From contig NZ_JAHYJB010000012.1 of assembly GCF_019429335.1 (NCBI RefSeq), positions 1 to 47,396 on the forward strand: a DNA stretch of 47,396 nucleotides, written 5' to 3'. The position numbers and the translations under genes were made by a program. The notes under the pieces were generated by a model. That model did no database searches, had not been told where the DNA came from, and saw only the letters and a program-made list of their open reading frames with translations. This document shows positions 9,990 to 22,411 of this stretch, in pieces (the stretch's first letter is position 1; every line of letters starts with the position of its first letter). This DNA comes from Sulfurimonas sp. GTDB lineage: Bacteria; Campylobacterota; Campylobacteria; Campylobacterales; Sulfurimonadaceae.

Positions 9990-10805
9990 TTATAGTTTTC
10001 CCATTTCTACTTTAATATCAAGCGGTTTTGCATGGTATGGTGAAGATGTAACTATGAGATCAACTCCCGTTTTTGCAAACTCCGTAACATTTTCAAGATT
10101 TATACCGCCTGTCGCGGAGATAGTGATGTTCTTAAACTCCTCTTTTAGTTTTACACACTCTTTGAGCATCTTAAAATCCATTTTTTCACACTGAAGTATA
10201 TCTACTCCCAAAGAGGCAAAATAGTGTGCATCTTGAGGGTTGTCTACCTCTGCCGTAATCTTTTTTTCTATAAATTTTCTCTTTAGGGTTTTAAAACTTC
10301 TCTCTAGTTCTTGCTTGTCGCTAAGAAATACCAAATGTTGCTCAAAGATTAAAATCGAATCATAGAGTCCAAGCCGATGAGGTGCTCCACCGCCGTCCAT
10401 TACCGCTTTTAACATGAGCTCTTTTGAACCTGGGAAATTTTTTCTTGTTGTTATTATGGCAATATCCGGATTGATGGCTTTTGCAAGTTGCAGCATTTTG
10501 TCTGTATACGTGGCGATGCCACTCATATACTCAAAGATATTTTGAGATATTTTCCAAGCATGATGAAGCGATTTTGCATTTCCGCTGCACTCCAAAATAG
10601 TCTCTTTTGGAGCAGTCATATCGCCGTTTTTTTTCAAAAATCTATATTTTAAACCACACTTTTTTACAATCTTCTCTACTTCATCGCAGCCGCTGAGGAT
10701 TATCTCACTCTTTGGAGCAAAACTCATAGAACCCTCTTTAACGCCGATTCCCAGCCCAAAAGTTGTCAAATCAAAATAGCCGCCGTCTTCAAATAGCAGA
10801 TCCAT
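9990..10805 (-). CDS. modD: ModD, quinolinate phosphoribosyltransferase-like protein
   Basis: 271-aa NadC-fold protein. NadC-type motifs include ETILECSGNAKSLHHAWK, a substrate-site stretch ITTRKNFPGSKELMLKAV, AEVDNPQDA and ISATGGINLENV near the C-terminus. As the last gene of a molybdate transport operon, it matches ModD, a NadC paralogue found with mod genes. ModD's biochemical role is not established; phosphoribosyl transfer to an unknown acceptor is the usual guess. Start ATG at 10805, 3 bp after the TSUP permease. A true NadC remains possible, but location favours ModD. Confidence 0.85.
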   Translation of the reverse strand: MDLLFEDGGYFDLTTFGLGIGVKEGSMSFAPKSEIILSGCDEVEKIVKKCGLKYRFLKKNGDMTAPKETILECSGNAKSLHHAWKISQNIFEYMSGIATYTDKMLQLAKAINPDIAIITTRKNFPGSKELMLKAVMDGGGAPHRLGLYDSILIFEQHLVFLSDKQELERSFKTLKRKFIEKKITAEVDNPQDAHYFASLGVDILQCEKMDFKMLKECVKLKEEFKNITISATGGINLENVTEFAKTGVDLIVTSSPYHAKPLDIKVEMGKL

Positions 10806-10808
10806 ATA

Positions 10809-11582
10809 CTAAACCTTTTTTTTACTAAAAAGTTTATATGCGGAGATTAAAAGGATAATTCCAAGTAAAGCTTCTAAATAAAGGGCATCTACTATCCCAT
10901 ACGCTAAAGCTCCTATAAAAGCACCGATCATAGAACCGATTGCCATATAGATGATAATCTCTTTAAAACCAAAAACTTCTTGCAGTCTCTTTGTTTTATT
11001 GTATTTATAAATACCCACAAGTAAAGTAGGAAACGATATAAGCAGACTTAATGTTCCTGCTGTTTTTATATCTACAGAATACAAAAGTACGATAGTAGGG
11101 ATAAGAAGCTCTCCGCCGGCGACTCCCAAAATAGAACTTATCATCCCTATGCCCACACCAAGAGCAAAACCTAAAATAATCCCAATCCATGAAGGAATTA
11201 AAACTTCACTTTTAAAATCAAAAAACATATGGCTAAAAAGTACAAAACTTAAAAATACAAGTAAGATAAATATATAACCGTTAAGCTTTTGTTTATCAAT
11301 GCTTGAAGCTTTGTTTGCCCCGATGTAAGCACCTATAAGAGTTCCTGTTAAAAGATTGGCAACTATATAAAAATTTGAATATATACTCTCATCTATCCCT
11401 CTAAAAATCAAAGCGAAGAATACTGTTACTAACGAGATGATTATATTGAGCATTACCGCATGGAGAGTGTCTATTTTTAAAATACCAACCAAAAAAGGGA
11501 GGCGAAACTCTGCACCTCCCAAACCGATAAGCCCTCCTAGGGAGCCTATAGAAGCTCCGCCTATAAATGATTTGAGTTTCAC
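10809..11582 (-). CDS. TSUP-family (TauE/SafE) membrane permease
   Basis: 257 aa with about eight hydrophobic segments and two internally similar glycine-rich openings (ASIGSLGGLIGLGGAEFRLP near the N-terminus and GMISSILGVAGGELLIP near residue 150), typical of the TSUP family. Known members move sulfite, sulfonates and related anions, often outward. It starts with GTG overlapping the modC stop by one base (TAGTG) and lies between modC and modD, so it is co-transcribed with molybdate uptake genes. A role with molybdate, tungstate or a competing oxyanion is inferred only from position. Confidence 0.85.
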   Translation of the reverse strand: MKLKSFIGGASIGSLGGLIGLGGAEFRLPFLVGILKIDTLHAVMLNIIISLVTVFFALIFRGIDESIYSNFYIVANLLTGTLIGAYIGANKASSIDKQKLNGYIFILLVFLSFVLFSHMFFDFKSEVLIPSWIGIILGFALGVGIGMISSILGVAGGELLIPTIVLLYSVDIKTAGTLSLLISFPTLLVGIYKYNKTKRLQEVFGFKEIIIYMAIGSMIGAFIGALAYGIVDALYLEALLGIILLISAYKLFSKKKV

Positions 11583-12436
11583 TACAAACCTTTGATTATA
11601 GGGCTAAATGCTTTAGTGCTTAAACTTACACTTTGACCTATTTTTAAACTATTAGCTTCATTATCGCTTATTACCACTTCAACTAACTGTTGACCGACTG
11701 AAACTATGGCTATGTTTATCACATCTACTTTTACTATATCGAGTAACTCACCCTCAAAAGAGAATTTTTGACTCCCACTAGTTTTGAGTAAAATATCTTT
11801 TGGCGAGCCGTCGTTTACAATCTCTCCAAAATTTAACATAACCACTCTTTGCGCCAATCTATATATCTCACTTGGATCATGGCTTACCATAATTGTTGTA
11901 GTTTTAAACTCTTTATGGAGTGTTAATATCTCTTGCTGGAGTTTTGTTCTCATGGTAGGATCAAGTGCCGATAAAGGCTCATCCATGAGTAAAAGATTTG
12001 GTTTATTCATCATAGCACGACAAAGACTCACACGCTGTTTTTGCCCACCGCTTAAGGTGTTTGGCAGCCTTGCCTTTAGTTCAGCCATCTCCGTCATCCC
12101 CAATAGACTCTCTGCCAATCGCTTGTCATTGTTTACATAGAGCAAATTATCAAGTACACTCATGTTATTAAAGAGTGCATAATCTTGAAATACAAATCCT
12201 ATTTTCCTTTTTTGTGAGGGTAAACAAAACTTCTTATCAAGCCAAACTTCATCACTCATTTGAATAGTTCCGCTAGCATCTTCAAGACCTGCCAAAATTC
12301 TTAAAAGTGTAGTTTTTCCACTTCCGCTTTGCCCTGCGAGTGCGACAAAGTCACCATCTTCAACAGTTAGGTTTACATTCAAATCCATTTGACCGTCTGC
12401 GCCATGGAGTTTTTTATTTATGTCTATTTTTATCAC
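11582..12436 (-). CDS. modC: Molybdate ABC transporter ATP-binding protein ModC
   Basis: 284 aa. The ABC ATPase domain has Walker A GQSGSGKTT (35-43), Q-loop VFQDYALF, signature LSGGQKQR (128-135), Walker B LLLMDEP (148-154) and switch His in VSHDPSE. Residues ~220-284 form one TOBE/Mop oxyanion-binding domain; full-length E. coli ModC is longer (about 350 aa). It powers uptake through ModB. Start is GTG directly after the modB stop. It belongs to the continuous leftward mod unit. Confidence 0.95.
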   Translation of the reverse strand: MIKIDINKKLHGADGQMDLNVNLTVEDGDFVALAGQSGSGKTTLLRILAGLEDASGTIQMSDEVWLDKKFCLPSQKRKIGFVFQDYALFNNMSVLDNLLYVNNDKRLAESLLGMTEMAELKARLPNTLSGGQKQRVSLCRAMMNKPNLLLMDEPLSALDPTMRTKLQQEILTLHKEFKTTTIMVSHDPSEIYRLAQRVVMLNFGEIVNDGSPKDILLKTSGSQKFSFEGELLDIVKVDVINIAIVSVGQQLVEVVISDNEANSLKIGQSVSLSTKAFSPIIKGL

Positions 12437-13126
12437 TTATACCCCTATTTTATTCTGGTTGCCGTTAAAAATATAAACACTAAGAAGTACCAAAAAGCTA
12501 ATAACCACCATGATGGCACTGTAAATATGAGCTGAAGTATAATCCATTATTTCAACCATCTCATAAATAGCAACAGATGCCACTTTTGTCTCACCCGGAA
12601 TGCTTCCCCCAACCATCAAGACAACTCCAAACTCTCCGACCGTGTGGGCAAATGTAACTATAATAGCAGTCATAAGTGCCGGTTTCATGTTTGGAAGAGC
12701 AACTTTAATTATGGTTTCAAACTTACTTTTACCGGTTAAATAGCTAGCTTCGAGCATATTTTTATTTATAGATTCAAATCCCCCCTGAAGAGGTTGCACC
12801 ATAAACGGAAGAGAGTAAAAAGCACTAGCTACTACAAGCCCCGTAAAGTTAAAAACAAGTTTTACCCCAAAAACATCTTCAAAAAACGCCCCGACAGGAG
12901 AGTTTTGTGACAGTGCTACAAGGATATAAAAGCCTAAAACAGAAGGCGGCAGTACAAGAGGAAGTGCTGTTAAACTCTCCCAAAACGGCTTCATCTTTGA
13001 CTTTGTTTGAGATAGATACCAAGCCAAAGGGGTACTAATAATAAAAAGTATCAAAGTTGTTAAACCGGCTAGTTTAAAAGAGATTAAAAATGGTTCAAAC
13101 TCTAAGTTATGAAACAGCTCAATCAT
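12437..13126 (-). CDS. modB: Molybdate ABC transporter permease ModB
   Basis: Inner-membrane permease of about 229 aa with five to six hydrophobic segments and the cytoplasmic EAA loop (EASYLTGKSKFE, then LPNMKP) that docks on ModC. LPLVLPPSVLGFY and HTVGEFGVVLMVGGSIPGET are classic ModB stretches. I place the start at the ATG 13126, overlapping the molbindin stop by 8 bp; an in-frame GTG at 13138 is the alternative. The tight overlap suggests translational coupling. Confidence 0.94.
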   Translation of the reverse strand: MIELFHNLEFEPFLISFKLAGLTTLILFIISTPLAWYLSQTKSKMKPFWESLTALPLVLPPSVLGFYILVALSQNSPVGAFFEDVFGVKLVFNFTGLVVASAFYSLPFMVQPLQGGFESINKNMLEASYLTGKSKFETIIKVALPNMKPALMTAIIVTFAHTVGEFGVVLMVGGSIPGETKVASVAIYEMVEIMDYTSAHIYSAIMVVISFLVLLSVYIFNGNQNKIGV

Positions 13127-13520
13127 CACAAATCTCACTTATTGAAACTTCACTTGCTTTTATAAGAGCCGTGACCCTATCTCCTGCTTTTAAATTCATT
13201 CGCTTAGATGAATCTACGGTAATAATTGACTCCAAATCAGTGTCAAAAAACTTAAGTTTTATATTGGATAAAAGTTGCCCGTTTTCACAAGATACAATGG
13301 TTGTTTCTAATTTATTTGAGTAACTAACCTCACCGCTAAAATCTTTGGCAATTGCTACATGAGACGGTTTAACGGCAAGCTTCACTTTTGTTCCGACTTG
13401 GATGGCATCATTTAAGTCCAAACTCATCATAGATAAAGTTTGACCGTTGCAGTCAAACTTTACTATATGCAAACTATCACAAGCTTCTATTTGTGTTACA
13501 GTTGCAATCAAACTGCTCAT
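13119..13520 (-). CDS. Stand-alone molbindin (two TOBE/Mop domains)
   Basis: 133-aa soluble protein made of two Mop-like repeats (residues ~1-65 and ~66-133), each ending in the TOBE pattern: TKVKLAVKPSHVAIAKD and GDRVTALIKASEVSISE. Molbindins bind molybdate or tungstate and are thought to store or hand on the oxyanion in the cytoplasm. The ATG at 13520 overlaps the modA stop by 4 bp and its own stop overlaps modB. Placement between modA and modB is unusual but clearly within the operon. Confidence 0.88.
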   Translation of the reverse strand: MSSLIATVTQIEACDSLHIVKFDCNGQTLSMMSLDLNDAIQVGTKVKLAVKPSHVAIAKDFSGEVSYSNKLETTIVSCENGQLLSNIKLKFFDTDLESIITVDSSKRMNLKAGDRVTALIKASEVSISEICDD

Positions 13521-14263
13521 GGAACTAAATATCCAAAATCAATTAATATTTTTTTCGCTTGAGCACCTAACATAAAATCATAAAATGCTTTCGCATCACT
13601 GTTGTCTTTAGCATTTTTAATGATTACAATCCCTTGATTAATTGGGGTGTAAAGCTTAGAATCCACATCTACCCAATGCACACCCTCTTTGTACTGAGTC
13701 ATTTTAGGGCTATAGAGTGAAGATTTTGCAATGAAGCCTATATCCGCAGCTGTTACAGCATAAGAAACTGTTTGGGAGATAGATTCTGCATATACAAATT
13801 TACTCTCTACATCAGCTAATACTCCGGCATTTTTTATAGCTTCAAGAGCTGCTTTGCCGTACGGGGCAGTTTTTGGATTTGCTATTGCTATTTTCTGGAT
13901 ACTTTGATCTTTAAGAAGATTTATTGATTTTGAAAAATCTTTTTGACTATTGCTCAGCATCGCTAAACTTCCTTGTGCATACACAACCGGTACCGTAATC
14001 GCAATACCTTCTTCATATAAGCTTTGCGGAAACATCATATTTGCCGCCATAAAAAGTTGGTATGGCGCTCCATTTTTAATTTGAGCAGTGAGTTTTCCAC
14101 TACTCCCTAAAGTTACCTTTACTTGTGTGTCGGGATTTGTTTTATGAAACTCCTCTAAAAGTTTATCCATAGCATAACTCACATTTGCAGCAACTGCTAC
14201 ATTGATAGTTCCTGCAAACAGACTCATACTTAAAACCATTAAACCTAGTACTATTTTTTTCAT
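13517..14263 (-). CDS. modA: Molybdate-binding periplasmic protein ModA
   Basis: 248 aa with a signal peptide (MKKIVLGLMVLSMSLFAG). It shows the ModA pattern: AANVSYAMDKLLEEF, TLGSSGKLTAQIKNGAP (ligand Ser residues), ANPKTAPYGKAALEA and AADIGFIAKSSL, and ends in DFMLGAQAKKILIDFGY. It captures molybdate or tungstate in the periplasm for ModBC. It starts 9 bp after the porin stop and its stop overlaps the molbindin start. Molybdate versus tungstate preference cannot be settled from sequence. Confidence 0.95.
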   Translation of the reverse strand: MKKIVLGLMVLSMSLFAGTINVAVAANVSYAMDKLLEEFHKTNPDTQVKVTLGSSGKLTAQIKNGAPYQLFMAANMMFPQSLYEEGIAITVPVVYAQGSLAMLSNSQKDFSKSINLLKDQSIQKIAIANPKTAPYGKAALEAIKNAGVLADVESKFVYAESISQTVSYAVTAADIGFIAKSSLYSPKMTQYKEGVHWVDVDSKLYTPINQGIVIIKNAKDNSDAKAFYDFMLGAQAKKILIDFGYLVP

Positions 14264-14272
14264 CTTTAATCC

Positions 14273-15727
14273 TTAAAATAGGTAGTTCAGCTCAAAACGA
14301 GCATCTAAACTATCCGCATCTACTTTATCAGTATCCGTGTAACCTAATCTTAAACGCCACTGTAGCTCTGGCATCATAGGCAAGTTTTGTACAAATCCTG
14401 CATAATAGAAGTTTTCATCAAACTGTCCTTTGTCCTCATCGGCGTCTGTGTGAAGAGCAGAGAGTTGCATATACACATCCTTGTAAACTCCTGTTTTATT
14501 TGGGTTTATAGTTAATTCGGCACGATAACTTTTTGTATTTGCTACCCAGTTGTATCTTGCCATAGAACGAGTGTAACCTGCTGTTGGAAATCCTCTCCAT
14601 GGAGTTACTAAATCCGCTTCGTCAAACACCTTTGAATACCCGAGATTTAGTTTAAAAACATCATACGCAGCAACTAAACGAGCAGCTATCATTTGCGAAT
14701 CAAGTGAGTTTGGGTCTTTGTATCCGGTTGGTGTTGCATCATAAGCCGCGCCTCCAATGTCACCTGCTCCGTTATCAAACTGTTTGATATAGCGAACACC
14801 CGGCGAGAGAGAAAAGCTACCCATGTTTATTTTGTAATTTGCCTCTGCCATTGTCTCAGATATAAGCTCAGGTACCGCGTAAAATGATGCGTCGAGTTTT
14901 AAATTTTCTATAGATGTATTATGAATATCTCCTGTTATTAAAGGGGCATCTTCTTTCCCGACAGCTTTTAATTTTGTATATGTCAAACCCTTATGCATTG
15001 CCGAATCATCATTTTGATCCCAAGACGGGTTTAAAGATGAAGAAGAGCTTGCATCACCGTATGCCAAAACTGAGTGCGTGTCTGTATGCGCACGGAGTTT
15101 TTCTTTTGCTAGATACGCAAGTTTAATCGGAGTTTTTGAAACAAGAGTTGTGTTAAAAACTATACCGTCAAAAGCGTTTGGTATCATTTTTGTATCGTTT
15201 GAAGCAGTATAAAAAGTTTCTACTAACTGACGACCAACTGTTATGCTACTTTTTTCTAAACCGCTATAGCGGATGTAAGCCTGCCCTAAAGCACTCATAT
15301 TTTGATTTCCCGTATTGCTATAATCAAATCTACTAAGAACATCTTGCCCTGGTTTAGCAAATTTAATGTCGGCTTCTGATAAGTTTGTAAATCCATGACT
15401 ATAGTAAAGAGCACCTCTAAAATCGAAGTCATTATAGATGGCACTTTGATACACTAATGAACCGCCCAAACCGCTTGTGTAGTGATCTTTTTGTTTGCTG
15501 TTTTCTTCTTCCCATTTGTACATAAATGTATTTGAGCGAAGTCTGCCGTAAAAAATCCCCTCTTTAAACATTTGCGAAAAATTATCAACTTGTTTAGGTT
15601 TTTGACTATAGACCAGTTGATAATTTGTTTTAAGTGCCTGTTTAGGAACTTCGTCATTTGCACTTGTTACGGTTGTTACAAGTAGTGCCGCCGCTATAAC
15701 AGTGCTTAATCGAATTTTTGTTTTCAA
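14273..15727 (-). CDS. OprD-like outer-membrane porin in the mod operon
   Basis: 484 aa: signal peptide of ~23 residues, then alternating beta-strand sequence ending in FELNYLF, a C-terminal aromatic typical of outer-membrane barrels. YGRLRSNTF, SALGQAYIRYSGLE, TVGRQLVETFY and NAFDGIVFNTT match the OprD/campylobacterial porin pattern. The start is TTG (15727) with only an A-rich ribosome site; the signal peptide begins exactly there. Position between modE and modA suggests it passes molybdate or another oxyanion across the outer membrane (inference). Confidence 0.85.
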   Translation of the reverse strand: MKTKIRLSTVIAAALLVTTVTSANDEVPKQALKTNYQLVYSQKPKQVDNFSQMFKEGIFYGRLRSNTFMYKWEEENSKQKDHYTSGLGGSLVYQSAIYNDFDFRGALYYSHGFTNLSEADIKFAKPGQDVLSRFDYSNTGNQNMSALGQAYIRYSGLEKSSITVGRQLVETFYTASNDTKMIPNAFDGIVFNTTLVSKTPIKLAYLAKEKLRAHTDTHSVLAYGDASSSSSLNPSWDQNDDSAMHKGLTYTKLKAVGKEDAPLITGDIHNTSIENLKLDASFYAVPELISETMAEANYKINMGSFSLSPGVRYIKQFDNGAGDIGGAAYDATPTGYKDPNSLDSQMIAARLVAAYDVFKLNLGYSKVFDEADLVTPWRGFPTAGYTRSMARYNWVANTKSYRAELTINPNKTGVYKDVYMQLSALHTDADEDKGQFDENFYYAGFVQNLPMMPELQWRLRLGYTDTDKVDADSLDARFELNYLF

Positions 15728-15791
15728 TCTGTTTTTCTTTTAATGTAATTTTAATTTGTTATACTTTTATCGCTTCTTCCAAAGCACTTGT

Positions 15792-15833
15792 CTTGCAGTT
15801 ACCGCTGCAAGGCTTTTAATTCTCATCTCTCAT
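15792..15833 (-). promoter_or_regulatory. Hairpin and minimal reading frame in the modE-porin gap
   Basis: In the 160-bp gap, reading leftward, a good Shine-Dalgarno (GGAGGTC) precedes an ATG at 15833 and a five-codon frame (MRDEN, stop at 15816-15818). It is followed at once by a perfect hairpin, CTTGCAG / CTGCAAG with a 6-nt loop (15792-15811), with no U run. It could be an RNA-processing or coupling element ahead of the porin. A leader peptide is only a possibility. Confidence 0.35.
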
Positions 15834-15887
15834 TTGACCTCCAACTTTTAATTTTCGTAATATTAAAAAATCCATAGCGATGATTTT

Positions 15888-16679
15888 TTACCATCTGCCT
15901 AAGATAATGCTTTTTGGTTTACAAAAAGCGCTCACCTGCATCCCTTTTTTGAGATTTAATTTCTCAAGCAGCTCTGTTGGCATAATAGAACATACCGTGT
16001 TAGAGCCTTTTAGCTCAATGATAACCTCTGCATTTAAACTATCATGTTCTATTCGGATAATTTTCCCTATGAAACTGTTCATATCGTTTTTATCGGGTGA
16101 AAATTCATCATTTAAAATCAGAGCGTTTGCTTTAAAGAGCACATACAGCTCCATGCCTACATCAATTTCAAGAGTAGTTAACGAATCATTTGTGATGATT
16201 GCCGTTATATTCTCTTTGTTGTTAAGCTCAAGAGAGAGTATGCTCTCAACAGCTCCACTTTGAATAGTTAAAACTTTTGTCTTTAGCTGATTTCTTGCAC
16301 TTATACGGATATCCATACTCTTTAAAAGATGGATATGTCCATTTTTTTCACTTACGCGCTTGGAGAGATTTTCTAAAAATTGCTGATGCTCTTCTTGAAG
16401 GATTTTGTAGGTGTCTATAAGCTCTTTTGCATATTCACTTAGATGTGTTCCGCCGCCGCCTTTGCCACCTTTAGAACTCGTAACAAGCGGAAATTCAGAG
16501 AGGTTATTCATGGCATCTACCGCATCCCATGCAGCTTTGTAGCTCATCTTCATGGATTTAGCCGCTTTTGTTATGGAACCCTCTTTTTGGATGTGTATTA
16601 AAAGTTCCATGCGACCTTGTCCAAGGAAGCTATGTTCTGATTTATTTATCCATAATCGTCCGTTAATACTGTTTGGCAT
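15888..16679 (-). CDS. modE: Molybdate-responsive regulator ModE
   Basis: 263 aa. Residues ~10-115 form a ModE-type LysR-like winged HTH (GRMELLIHIQKEGSITKAAK, SYKAAWDAVDAMN, then a glycine-rich wing GGKGGGGTHLSE). Two Mop domains follow (~125-190 and ~198-263) and bind molybdate. ModE-molybdate typically represses molybdate uptake genes. ATG at 16679 has AAGGA upstream. It heads the leftward mod array and has a ModE-type palindrome across its own promoter, so autorepression is likely. Confidence 0.94.
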   Translation of the reverse strand: MPNSINGRLWINKSEHSFLGQGRMELLIHIQKEGSITKAAKSMKMSYKAAWDAVDAMNNLSEFPLVTSSKGGKGGGGTHLSEYAKELIDTYKILQEEHQQFLENLSKRVSEKNGHIHLLKSMDIRISARNQLKTKVLTIQSGAVESILSLELNNKENITAIITNDSLTTLEIDVGMELYVLFKANALILNDEFSPDKNDMNSFIGKIIRIEHDSLNAEVIIELKGSNTVCSIMPTELLEKLNLKKGMQVSAFCKPKSIILGRW

Positions 16680-16700
16680 GGTTTTCCTTAAATGTTAAAA

Positions 16701-16733
16701 GCGTAGTATATAAAAATATATAACGCTTGTCAA
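16701..16733 (-). promoter_or_regulatory. modE promoter with overlapping ModE operator
   Basis: On the minus strand, TTGACA (16728-16733) and TATACT (16705-16710) are separated by exactly 17 bp: a near-perfect sigma-70 promoter. The palindrome 16701-16726 has half-sites GCGTAGTATAT and ATATATAACGC around AAAA, with two mismatches between arms. It resembles the ModE box (TATATA core, CG-containing flanks) and covers the spacer and -10, an ideal place for repression. Confidence 0.8.
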
Positions 16734-16740
16734 TTATATT

Positions 16741-16782
16741 AAAAACTATACATGCAGGATTCAATCTGCCTGTATAGTTTTT
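16741..16782. terminator. Strong bidirectional terminator-like hairpin between modE and pyrH
   Basis: AAAAACTATACA (16741-16752) pairs perfectly with TGTATAGTTTTT (16771-16782); inside it GCAG (16754-16757) pairs with CTGC (16766-16769). With A runs on the left and T runs on the right it would terminate in both directions. It lies upstream of both divergent genes, where a terminator is not needed by either, so insulation or a relic of a lost gene is possible. Confidence 0.7.
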
Positions 16783-16860
16783 TTAAAAGCAGTAAGAAGA
16801 ATAGTTTATAAAACAAAGCAAAACAAAAGCCAATTTTAAGTACAATCTGCGTAATTTTAA

Positions 16861-17586
<726 letters not shown>

Positions 17587-17720
17587 TTTTTAAAAGGATT
17601 TAATTCTTTTGTGAGACTTATCTGGCACGAAAGTGTCAAACTTTAGTAGCCATGGCGGCTTTAGCGAAGTAAAAGGGAGTTGGTTCCTTTTATGGATTTA
17701 TCAAAATAAAAAGGAAAGAA
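17587..17720 (+). promoter_or_regulatory. Hairpin-rich leader upstream of rpoZ
   Basis: Consecutive predicted hairpins: GGCAC-GAAA-GTGTC (17624-17637, GNRA tetraloop); ACTT/AAGT enclosing AGCC-ATGGC-GGCT (17640-17670); and AAAAGG/CCTTTT (17671-17676 with 17686-17691). The CCTTTT arm could instead pair with AAAAGG at 17709-17714, which is the rpoZ ribosome-binding site. A weak AAAAG/CTTTT hairpin (17592-17610) may end pyrH. No known riboswitch class was recognised. A regulatory leader or small RNA is inferred from structure alone. Confidence 0.45.
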
Positions 17721-17936
17721 ATGAAAGTAGAAGTACTAACAGCAAAAATTCTAGACAATAACCCAAATATGGACCGTTACCAGCTAGCAATAGCTGTTGC
17801 AAAGAGAACTGATGAGCTGTTAAATGGTGCGACAAGCAAACTAAATATTTCTAAAAAAATAAAAGCTGCTGATTTAGCTTTAATGGAAATTGCTGAGGGC
17901 CTTATAGTTATAAAAGGCTTTGCCGACAAGAAGTAG
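17721..17936 (+). CDS. rpoZ: RNA polymerase omega subunit
   Basis: 71-aa omega subunit, which helps assemble and stabilise RNA polymerase and in many bacteria forms part of a ppGpp site. MDRYQLAIAVAKRTDEL matches the conserved helix of the family. The ATG follows AAAAAGGAAAG. It lies 5 bp before the ppGpp synthetase/hydrolase gene, a gene order shared by many bacteria (rpoZ-spoT). Confidence 0.93.
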   Translation: MKVEVLTAKILDNNPNMDRYQLAIAVAKRTDELLNGATSKLNISKKIKAADLALMEIAEGLIVIKGFADKK

Positions 17937-17941
17937 TCACT

Positions 17942-20095
17942 TTGAACCAGAGTCAAGTTGATATCCAAAAAATAAAACATATAGATAGCGTTGACTCTGC
18001 TACTGAGTACCTTTTTTCACAAATACCTTCAAGCGACACTCTGATAAATGCTCTAGAGTACTCCAAAAAAGCTCATGAAAAGCAGTTTAGAAAGAGTGGA
18101 GAGCCCTACATAATCCACCCAATACTGGTTGCTAGCATAGTATCCTCAATTACAAATGATGAGTCAATGGCGATAGCCGCACTTCTTCATGACGTTGTAG
18201 AGGATACACTGGTAAATATAGATGATATAAAATCGCTTTTTGGCACTGATGTCGCCCATCTGGTGGAGGGTCTTACAAAGATTGACACTATCAGGGATGC
18301 GGAACTAATCCCCTCTAGCTCAAATGAAAAATTGGTCATATCCGCACTCTCGTTTCGTAAAATGTTACTAGCGAGTATAAAAGATGTAAGAGTTTTGGTT
18401 GTAAAACTGTGTGACAGACTTCACAATATGTTAACCCTAGATTCACTATCGGTGTACAAACAGGAGCGGATAGCCGAAGAGACGCTTGTTGTTTACGCAC
18501 CAATCGCACACAGGCTTGGTATCTCTTTTTTGAAAAATATATTAGAAGATTTAAGCTTCTCATACATTTTTAAAGAAGAGAAAAGAGAGATAGATTGGTA
18601 TTTTGATACAAACTATCACGCCATTGAGATGAAGCTCGATGAGTTTAAAGAGTCCATAAATAAACTCTTGGTTCAAAACGGCTTTTGCGAAGATGATTTT
18701 GAGATACTCTCACGCGTAAAGCACAGATACTCTATATATCTTAAAATGCAGAGAAAAGGCGTAGGCATAGAGGAGGTGCTAGACCTTTTGGCAGTTAGGA
18801 TTTTAACAAACGATGCCGTAAGGTGCTACAATATTTTAGGGCTAATTCATCTCCATTTTCAGCCGCTCTCATCGAGATTTAAAGACTATATTGCCGTGCC
18901 TAAAGATAACGGATACAGAACCATTCATACTACAGTTTTTTACAATACTGCAATATTTGAGGTGCAAATCAGAACGTATGATATGCATCAAACCGCAGAA
19001 CTAGGAGTTGCTGCACACTGGAAATATAAGAGCGGCGGCAACGACAATATTAAGCTTGACTGGCTTCATAATCTGGGCTATCAAAATGAGTCTGTTGAAG
19101 ATTTCTACGACCTTATTAAAAATGATCTATACAGCGAAGATATATCTGTTTTCTCCCCAAAAGGAGAGGTTTTCACACTACCGCGGGGCGCTGTTGTGCT
19201 TGATTTTGCCTACGCAGTCCATACGCAAGTCGGAAATCATGCAAAGTCTGCTCTTGTCAACAAAGCAAAAGCATCGCTAATAAGTGAGCTTCATAACGGA
19301 GATATCGTAAAAATAGAGCTTGACGAGAACAGTATAACGAGATGCAGCTGGATTGACGCCGTTAAGACTTCAAAAGCAAAAACAAATATGCGCTATATCT
19401 GCAATGCCAGAGTAAGAGAGATAGACTCAAAGTCGAGTATAAATATTGTAGCAACAGCTATGAAACTAAACAGCTCAAGGGTAGAAGAGTGGCTTGAAAA
19501 AAACTATAACGAAAAAATTGCTACTATCGCGACGGATATCGAGCATTTTCGCGAGATAATTTATAAATATACCGCCGAGATAAGCCAAAACAGCCGTTTT
19601 AGAAGTTTTCTCTCAAGACACAGGTTTAAGCTAAAGCAGTATAGCTTTAGAGGGCTTGAGATATTTAGCACCTTAGGTATCAATGATGTAGTGTTTGACT
19701 ACTGCTGTCATCCAAAAAGCGGCGACGAAGTAATGGCATTTTTGGAAAAAGGGAAGGCTCATGTGCACCATAAGATGTGCAGCAGCGCTTCAAAAAAACT
19801 AGATGCAAAAGAACCTATGGTTTTTCTTAGATGGGAGAAGCTAAATATTTACAAATACAACATGATTGTCTCTCTTCACAGCGGAGTAGGAACACTGGCT
19901 GAATTTTTAATTTTTTTGGCAAAGTACAAAATAGATATAAATCTAATTGAGCTGGGAAAAAACAGAAGTGAATCAACACGCTATTGTGAGATAGGATTTG
20001 AGTCAAAAGAAGCAGATATTAACTCACTTCGTGTTAAAATCGAGCAAAAAGTAAAAGTGATACATCTTATTCGTACGGATGACGCATATAGATAG
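17942..20095 (+). CDS. spoT: Bifunctional (p)ppGpp synthetase/hydrolase (RelA/SpoT homologue)
   Basis: 717 aa. Domains in order: HD hydrolase (H59, H83-D84 in ALLHDVVEDT), nucleotidyltransferase with YSIYLKMQRKG and DNGYRTIHTTV, TGS (DISVFSPKGEVFTLPRGA), helical linker, and C-terminal ACT (~645-717, HSGVGTLAEFLIFLAKY). An intact HD motif suggests both synthesis and breakdown of (p)ppGpp. The start is TTG at 17942, 5 bp after rpoZ; the next ATG would remove part of the HD domain. It makes the stringent-response alarmone for this cell. Confidence 0.95.
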   Translation: MNQSQVDIQKIKHIDSVDSATEYLFSQIPSSDTLINALEYSKKAHEKQFRKSGEPYIIHPILVASIVSSITNDESMAIAALLHDVVEDTLVNIDDIKSLFGTDVAHLVEGLTKIDTIRDAELIPSSSNEKLVISALSFRKMLLASIKDVRVLVVKLCDRLHNMLTLDSLSVYKQERIAEETLVVYAPIAHRLGISFLKNILEDLSFSYIFKEEKREIDWYFDTNYHAIEMKLDEFKESINKLLVQNGFCEDDFEILSRVKHRYSIYLKMQRKGVGIEEVLDLLAVRILTNDAVRCYNILGLIHLHFQPLSSRFKDYIAVPKDNGYRTIHTTVFYNTAIFEVQIRTYDMHQTAELGVAAHWKYKSGGNDNIKLDWLHNLGYQNESVEDFYDLIKNDLYSEDISVFSPKGEVFTLPRGAVVLDFAYAVHTQVGNHAKSALVNKAKASLISELHNGDIVKIELDENSITRCSWIDAVKTSKAKTNMRYICNARVREIDSKSSINIVATAMKLNSSRVEEWLEKNYNEKIATIATDIEHFREIIYKYTAEISQNSRFRSFLSRHRFKLKQYSFRGLEIFSTLGINDVVFDYCCHPKSGDEVMAFLEKGKAHVHHKMCSSASKKLDAKEPMVFLRWEKLNIYKYNMIVSLHSGVGTLAEFLIFLAKYKIDINLIELGKNRSESTRYCEIGFESKEADINSLRVKIEQKVKVIHLIRTDDAYR

Positions 20096-20120
20096 AAATT
20101 AAACAGGAAAATATAGAATT

Positions 20121-21320
20121 ATGTTACAAGAAGCTTTAAAAGAGATAAAGAGAGGCGCTGCCGAGATAATAGACAATGAGAGAATTGAAAAACTGTTAAA
20201 AGCATACTTCGATAATAAAGAGACATACACGGTAAAAGTGGGTTTTGACCCAACAGCGCCTGATTTACATCTAGGACACACTGTATTGCTACAAAAATTG
20301 GCTATATTTCAAAAATATGGCGCAAAAATACAGTTTTTAATAGGCGATTTTACTGCTCAAATCGGTGACCCGACGGGCAAGAGCGCGACTAGAAAAACTT
20401 TGAGCGCATTTCAGATTCAAGAGAATGCTGCGAGCTACAAAGAGCAGGTTTTTAAAATTCTAGACCCGTTAAAAACTGAGGTTGTATTTAACTCAGAGTG
20501 GATAAATCCGCTTGGGGCTTCTGGAATGCTGACTCTTACTACTACGTTTAACGTTGCAAGAATGTTAGAGCGTGACGACTTTGACAAAAGATACAAAAGC
20601 GGTACTTCAATCTCTATAAGCGAGTTTATATATCCGCTTCTTCAGGGCTATGACAGCGTTCATCTCAAAAGTGACATTGAGATAGGCGGAACTGACCAGA
20701 AATTCAACCTTCTTATGGGAAGACATCTTCAAAGAGCGTATGAGACAGGAAAAGAGCAGGCTGTTTTAATGATGCCTATCTTAGAAGGTCTTGACGGCGT
20801 GCAAAAGATGAGCAAATCTCTAAATAACTATATCGGCGTAGCAGATGAGCCAAACGACATGTTTGGAAAAGTGCTGAGTATATCCGATGAGCTGATGTGG
20901 AGATATTATGAACTCTTAAGCGCAAAAACTCTTAGCGAAATTGAAGCATTAAAAAATGGCGTAGCTGATGGTTCTTTGCATCCAAAAAAAGTTAAAGAGG
21001 AGCTGGCTTTAGAAATTACTGCGAGATTTCACTCCGAGGTGCTGGCAAATGAGGCAAAAATGGAGTTTGACAGAGTACACTCAAACAATCAAATTCCTAC
21101 AGAGATAGAGGAGTTTAGCTCTGATGGAGAGATTTCTATAACTAAAGCCCTTGTTGATTGCAATTTAGCGCCTTCAACTTCTCAGGCAAGAAGAGATATT
21201 AAGCAAGGTGCTGCTAAAATAAATCAAGAAAAGATTGACAACGAGCATCTACAGCTAAGAAGCGGGGAGTATATACTCCAAGTCGGAAAAAGAAAATTTG
21301 CAAAGCTAAAGGTGAGCTAA
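20121..21320 (+). CDS. tyrS: Tyrosyl-tRNA synthetase
   Basis: 399-aa class I synthetase attaching tyrosine to tRNA-Tyr. The HIGH-type motif is HLGH at residues 50-53 (PDLHLGHTVLL), the KMSKS loop is at 229-233, and a C-terminal S4-type RNA-binding domain spans ~340-399 (STSQARRDIKQGAAKIN). Length is normal. The ATG follows AGGAAAA. Its TAA overlaps the ATG of the next gene by one base, so the two are translationally coupled. Confidence 0.97.
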   Translation: MLQEALKEIKRGAAEIIDNERIEKLLKAYFDNKETYTVKVGFDPTAPDLHLGHTVLLQKLAIFQKYGAKIQFLIGDFTAQIGDPTGKSATRKTLSAFQIQENAASYKEQVFKILDPLKTEVVFNSEWINPLGASGMLTLTTTFNVARMLERDDFDKRYKSGTSISISEFIYPLLQGYDSVHLKSDIEIGGTDQKFNLLMGRHLQRAYETGKEQAVLMMPILEGLDGVQKMSKSLNNYIGVADEPNDMFGKVLSISDELMWRYYELLSAKTLSEIEALKNGVADGSLHPKKVKEELALEITARFHSEVLANEAKMEFDRVHSNNQIPTEIEEFSSDGEISITKALVDCNLAPSTSQARRDIKQGAAKINQEKIDNEHLQLRSGEYILQVGKRKFAKLKVS

Positions 21321-22411
21321 TGAGCTACAAATCATTAAAAATTGGTAAATATATAATAGAGAAACCTATAGTTCAAGGTGGAATGGGTGTCGGTGTCAGT
21401 TGGGATCGGCTTGCCGGAAATGTTTCAAAAGAGGGTGGCTTAGGCGTAATAAGCGCAGTTGGAACCGGATACTATGAAAATAAAAAATATGCTTCAAAAC
21501 TTGTGGCAGGCAGACCGCTTGATGCTCTTGGATTCTACTCAAAAGATGGTTTTGACGCGATTATAAAAAATGCCAGAAAAATCTGCGGCGATAAGCCGTT
21601 AGCGGCAAATATCCTCTATGCAATAAACGATTACCCAAGAGTAGTGCGAGACGCATGTGAGAGCGGTATAGATATTATTATTACTGGAGCAGGACTTCCT
21701 ACAAATATGCCTGAGTTTACGGAAGGGTATCCTGATGTTGCGCTCGTTCCAATCGTATCATCTGCAAAAGCTCTGAAAATTATCTGCAAAAGATGGAAGC
21801 AGAGATATAACAGACTTCCTGATGCGGTAGTTCTTGAAGGGCCAAAAAGCGGCGGTCATCAAGGTTTTACATATGAGCAGTGCTCAATGCCTGAGAATCA
21901 GTTAGAAAACTTGGTTAGACCTGTTGTTGAAGAGGCGGCTTTGTGGGGAGATATTCCAGTAATCGCGGCAGGCGGCATTTGGGATAAGAGCGATATTGAT
22001 GAGATAATGTTGCTGGGTGCCAGAGGTGTTCAGATGGGGACGCGTTTTATAGCAACGCACGAGTGTGATGCACATGAAAACTTTAAAAAAGTTCTCCTTG
22101 AGGCAAAAAAAGAGGATATTGGGCTATTCTCCTCTCCCGTTGGGTATCCTGCACAGGGGATAAAAACAAATTTAACGCTACTGGTTGAAAAAAGAGAAGG
22201 TCCGGCTATTAAATGTATCTCTAATTGTGTTGCCCCTTGTAATCGCGGTGAAGAGGCAAAAGAGGTAGGTTATTGTATTGCTGACAGACTTAGTGATGCT
22301 TATAACGGAAATCTCGAGACGGGACTCTTCTTCTCTGGTACAAACGGTTACAGAGTTGATAAAATAATCTCAGTAAAAGAGTTGATGAAAAAATTAGTAA
22401 ACGGTGAATAA
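21320..22411 (+). CDS. Nitronate monooxygenase / FabK-like flavoprotein
   Basis: 363-aa FMN TIM-barrel protein of the nitronate monooxygenase (2-nitropropane dioxygenase) / enoyl-ACP reductase II superfamily. The opening PIVQGGMGVGVSWDRLAGNV, VLEGPKSGGHQGF and AAGGIWDKSDIDEIMLLGARGVQMGTRF are the flavin- and phosphate-binding stretches. Oxidation of nitronates and FabK-type reduction cannot be separated by eye. A Cys-bearing stretch near the C-terminus (ISNCVAPCNRG) is notable. It overlaps tyrS by one base. Confidence 0.85.
   Translation: MSYKSLKIGKYIIEKPIVQGGMGVGVSWDRLAGNVSKEGGLGVISAVGTGYYENKKYASKLVAGRPLDALGFYSKDGFDAIIKNARKICGDKPLAANILYAINDYPRVVRDACESGIDIIITGAGLPTNMPEFTEGYPDVALVPIVSSAKALKIICKRWKQRYNRLPDAVVLEGPKSGGHQGFTYEQCSMPENQLENLVRPVVEEAALWGDIPVIAAGGIWDKSDIDEIMLLGARGVQMGTRFIATHECDAHENFKKVLLEAKKEDIGLFSSPVGYPAQGIKTNLTLLVEKREGPAIKCISNCVAPCNRGEEAKEVGYCIADRLSDAYNGNLETGLFFSGTNGYRVDKIISVKELMKKLVNGE

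Follow-up and report, generated by a model that had tools for sequence, protein, structure and literature searches.

The 47,396-nucleotide stretch analysed here (hereafter the window) carries, in a Sulfurimonas-type bacterium, an array of eight genes on the minus strand in the order modE, porin, modA, Mop-domain protein, modB, modC, TSUP, and modD, ending at position 9990. The genes and the profiles that identify them are as follows.

15888–16679, minus strand: modE, 263 aa, winged-helix and two Mop/TOBE domains (TIGR00637, TIGR00638, 1o7l)
14273–15727, minus strand: OprD-like outer-membrane porin (PF03573, 19.5 bits, below the cut-off of 25)
13517–14263, minus strand: modA, the sole modA in the genome (TIGR01256, 176.9 bits)
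13119–13520, minus strand: Mop/TOBE-domain protein, 133 aa, between modA and modB (PF03459, 48.8 bits)
12437–13138, minus strand: modB (TIGR02141, 226.7 bits)
11582–12436, minus strand: modC-like ATPase with no TOBE match at its C-terminus (PF00005 ABC_tran; TIGR02142, 191.8 bits, below the cut-off)
10809–11582, minus strand: TSUP/TauE permease (PF01925, 90.1 bits)
9990–10805, minus strand: modD (TIGR01334, 240.6 bits)

The genes from the porin to modD are closely packed, and a gap of 160 bp separates modE from the porin. As the original prediction had it, modE stands at the head of the array, and the gene encodes a full-length ModE with two Mop domains. Its product contains the ModE DNA-binding domain (TIGR00637, 100.8 bits against a cut-off of 98.5) and two C-terminal Mop/TOBE domains (TIGR00638, 97.2 bits, and PF03459, each matching two stretches), aligns with E. 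coli ModE (1o7l) over residues 15–261 (247 residues, E=2e-30), and carries the SARN motif that is invariant in the ModE alignment. Among the named records in a search for relatives, the nearest was a Sulfurimonas MAG with a ModE of 89% identity. A ModE-like protein of Campylobacter jejuni reportedly lacks the metal-binding domains. When the genome was searched with the protein's own sequence, the modE product was the only ModE-like match; a looser profile search returned a second match, which may be the Mop-domain protein of the array. Of the molybdoenzyme, moaA, and modA genes found in the genome, only modA belongs to the array.

Between modE and the divergent pyrH lies a strong hairpin (16741–16782) with T-runs on both strands and a z-score of about -5.9. 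A terminator at this place seems to have nothing to terminate, and a dispersed repeat was rejected since the hairpin is unique in the genome. An Rfam search of the window found no known RNA elements.

Promoter and predicted ModE box before modE

Read on the minus strand from 16733 to 16701, the region before modE is TTGACA-AGCGTTATATATTTTTA-TATACT-ACGC, a promoter with a spacer of 17 bp over which a predicted ModE box is laid.

16728–16733, minus strand: -35 hexamer TTGACA (promoter scan; in-register conservation in relatives)
16702–16725, minus strand: predicted ModE box CGTTATATA-TTTTTA-TATACTACG (consensus match and conservation before modE in relatives)
16705–16710, minus strand: -10 hexamer TATACT, which is part of the downstream ModE half-site (promoter scan)

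The sigma-70 promoter proposed at the outset was recovered as the first of 44 promoter-like sites in positions 10000–22000, with 11 of 12 hexamer bases matching; the weaker sites in that interval mean little, because shuffled sequences yield nearly as many (34.1, sd 6.6). The 26-bp palindrome noticed over the spacer and the -10 was likewise found, at 16701–16726 (GCGTAGTATATAAAAATATATAACGC), its half-sites being complementary at 9 of 11 positions. It consists of the box plus flanking bases, and its 24-bp core covers the spacer and the -10 and ends 22 bp before the modE start codon. A general repeat finder did not report the palindrome, since the tool requires an exact seed of at least 6 bases and the longest one here has 5.

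The ModE-type character ascribed to this palindrome was borne out by comparison with the ModE box consensus of E. coli as given in PMC545781 and PMC2700814. The window box differs at two positions from CGTTATATA-N6-TATATAACG, the consensus of E. coli ModE, and shares with the E. coli boxes both the consensus (ATCGNTATATA-N6-TATATANCGAT) and the N6 spacing. Written as the E. coli-type palindrome CGNTATATA-N6-TATATANCG, the pattern is matched with the same two mismatches, and no such match is expected in the shuffled window. It is the only consensus match in the window at up to three mismatches, compared with none in 100 shuffles, and the probability of such a match in the modE upstream region is 0.0004 (dinucleotide shuffles). 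Throughout the 2.06-Mb genome the box before modE is the sole consensus match at up to two mismatches, and no further ModE targets were found at this threshold. The next-best match (C36:47439) sits within an ORF of 532 aa and was taken as chance.

Conservation in Campylobacterota and the proposed autorepression

A composite pattern of -35, ModE box, and -10 in register was derived from the window and searched in 397 Campylobacterota genomes, where it gave 26 matches in 25 genomes, and its reversed control gave none. Nineteen of the matches lie directly before a modE-like gene, a count that includes one modE remnant (G012) and one split modE (G024). The others precede modD (one), a globin-like gene (two), or nothing recognised (four, all of which carry three mismatches), and at up to two mismatches 17 of 20 matches are directly before modE. 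As the composite pattern was taken from the window itself, a second sample of 82 Campylobacterota modE-type genes was gathered by protein similarity alone. A significant upstream box, one that outscores roughly 98% of shuffles, was found in 47 of the 82 and was not found at the same threshold in 35, the counts across these genomes not being phylogenetically independent. The box is conserved before modE in several Campylobacterota families. Absence of the palindrome from relatives had been named beforehand as a result that would speak against the original prediction, which passed this test strongly.

Several individual cases were also seen. In G012 the composite box-promoter is perfect ahead of the modE remnant and is followed by porin, modA, and modD (L045); in G024, where modE is split in two frames, the composite match ahead of it is likewise perfect (L044). 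In two genomes of family f9, the composite ModE-box promoter, with 0–1 mismatches, precedes a globin-like gene (L054, 1587–2186; L055, 1592–2191 on the reverse strand), with a PF01152 match on the L055 protein.

The sequence is AT-rich, and with a degenerate pattern at up to three mismatches the genome shows no excess of matches (12 compared with 31 in the control), as would be expected if the palindrome were a coincidence of base composition or the site of another regulator. The 26 composite matches against none in the control, mostly directly before modE, make such a reading very improbable.

Together these observations indicate that the site very probably is an operator-promoter for autoregulation of a molybdate-responsive mod array. 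When molybdate is sufficient, ModE dimers would bind the box over the spacer and the -10 and exclude RNA polymerase, by which modE and, through read-through, probably also porin, modA, Mop-domain protein, modB, modC, TSUP, and modD would be turned off; when molybdate is scarce, repression would be released. Since the box is laid over the promoter, the sensor most likely switches itself off when molybdate is plentiful. Repression by ModE of its own synthesis, as first proposed, draws support from the fit of the box, its conservation in register over the modE promoter, and the precedents of modE-first operons. Bound ModE might instead activate the modE promoter, as it does the moa S1 promoter of E. 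coli (PMC2408646). However, a box across the spacer and the -10 would be expected to collide with RNA polymerase, and the modE-first promoters that have been described are repressed (PMC9542535; PMC6925177), so activation is considered very improbable here.

This type of control is already known, as autorepressed modE-first operons have been described in Azotobacter and Rhodobacter. According to the account in PMC9542535, modE is the first gene of A. vinelandii modEA1B1C1, and ModE represses at a motif within the promoter when Mo is abundant (Mouncey et al., 1996). The present array resembles it in having modE first and a predicted ModE motif within the promoter, and differs in its porin, separate Mop protein, TSUP, modD, and 160-bp gap after modE, which has signals of its own. 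R. capsulatus mopA-modABC, an operon with Mo-boxes, is likewise repressed with molybdate by a ModE-type regulator encoded at its head (PMC6925177). The regulator gene leads the transporter genes in both cases, whereas R. capsulatus has two redundant regulators and NtrC activation and the present bacterium has a single full-length ModE. Within the same phylum, mod and tup of Campylobacter jejuni are under a ModE-like regulator (Taveirne et al., 2009, as cited in PMC7759655), so that ModE-type control of molybdate uptake, predicted here, is common to both. The range of E. coli-type ModE boxes, and probably that of autorepressed arrays headed by modE, includes Campylobacterota, and the box offers a precise predicted operator for molybdate control in Sulfurimonas-type bacteria. 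In E. coli, modE is situated outside modABCD. Unlike in that arrangement, modE here bears the box itself.

The gap between modE and the porin

The original prediction extended ModE control, with some reserve, to the porin, transporter, TSUP, and modD. This part stands as plausible, and is less certain than autorepression, given the separate conserved signals within the 160-bp gap ahead of the porin.

15856–15879, minus strand: CGCTATGGATTTTTTAATATTACG, a second ModE box, weak and degenerate (p=0.006 in local shuffles; differs from the degenerate consensus at 4 positions)
15750–15813 (15742–15820 when delimited more broadly), minus strand: conserved pre-porin element with a palindrome CTTGCAG-N6-CTGCAAG (CTTGCAG-CGGTAA-CTGCAAG) followed by GTATAAC (alignment)

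The pre-porin element is kept in five Sulfurimonas-type genomes, gave no Rfam match, and shows modest RNA folding z-scores (-1.3 to -2.6). An internal promoter combined with an operator is one possible reading, a structured leader another. At about 15816–15842 on the minus strand, a strong Shine-Dalgarno sequence, GGAGG, precedes an ORF of five codons (MRDEN, stop), of which G004 retains the Shine-Dalgarno, start, and stop (MRDKN); the ORF is possibly a leader peptide or a relic.

The box before modE may accordingly govern modE alone, with the porin and mod genes using a promoter of their own in the gap, which either a degenerate ModE box or some other regulator would control. The aligned 60-nt stretch 15802–15742 is identical in G004 and G005, though the porin DNA of G004 is only about 47–70% identical over much of its length; the palindrome and GTATAAC are retained in G543 and G510, where the element is 77–81% identical ahead of the same porin; and good ModE boxes stand directly before the porin-like gene in G543 and G510, at the place corresponding to the degenerate one here, and in G021, between modE and that gene. 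On the other side, the promoter/terminator scan found no minus-strand terminator-like site between modE and the porin, modA or modD directly follows modE under the same box in some other genomes, and the box of G012 survives despite the decay of modE. Separate control of the porin and mod genes is thus a serious possibility, to which we give somewhat less than even weight. Control of the whole array from the modE promoter is consistent with the same strand, the close packing, and the lack of a minus-strand terminator-like site in the gap, and suggests that an outer-membrane porin may be under molybdate control. The second ModE box before the porin has likely decayed in the window, and an ancestor with two ModE-controlled promoters, the second of which is fading here, would account for these observations.

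Half-sites that may double as core signals

Both consensus mismatches of the window box fall in the -10-bearing half-site, which reads TATACTACG in place of TATATAACG, and the departures from the palindrome are the two bases that change TATATA to TATACT. The half-site appears to be asymmetric because the same bases must also act as a -10. With an in-register -35 defined as one located 16–18 bp before the relevant hexamer of the downstream half-site, 13 of the 14 boxes that have such a -35 show a -10-like hexamer at this place, compared with 1 of the 33 that lack it (Fisher p=1.4e-9, kinship among genomes being ignored). In boxes of the former kind, a single stretch thus appears to serve as half-operator and -10. 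Boxes of this promoter type were found in five families (f1, f4, f14, f17, f18), average 0.6 mismatches in the near half-site vs. 2.5 in the far one, and retain the outer CG in 12 of 13 cases.

Lopsidedness of this kind may be the one detail that specialists find new, as no description of a ModE box doubling as a -10 was found in the openly readable literature, and the overlap offers a clean case for studying how selection weighs repressor binding against promoter strength. Whether ModE boxes of Campylobacterota are as a rule combined with a core signal, the half-site being a -10 (TATACT/TATAAT) given an in-register -35 and a Shine-Dalgarno sequence (TATATAAGG) in f6 and some f9, is in our judgement evenly balanced; if it is, repressor affinity would be evolutionarily coupled to promoter or translation strength via the shared bases. 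In f6 and f9 (L223, L226, L251, L254, L257), the ModE box often closes with ..ATAAGG or ..ATAAAG immediately ahead of the start codon, where the half-site may double as a Shine-Dalgarno sequence.
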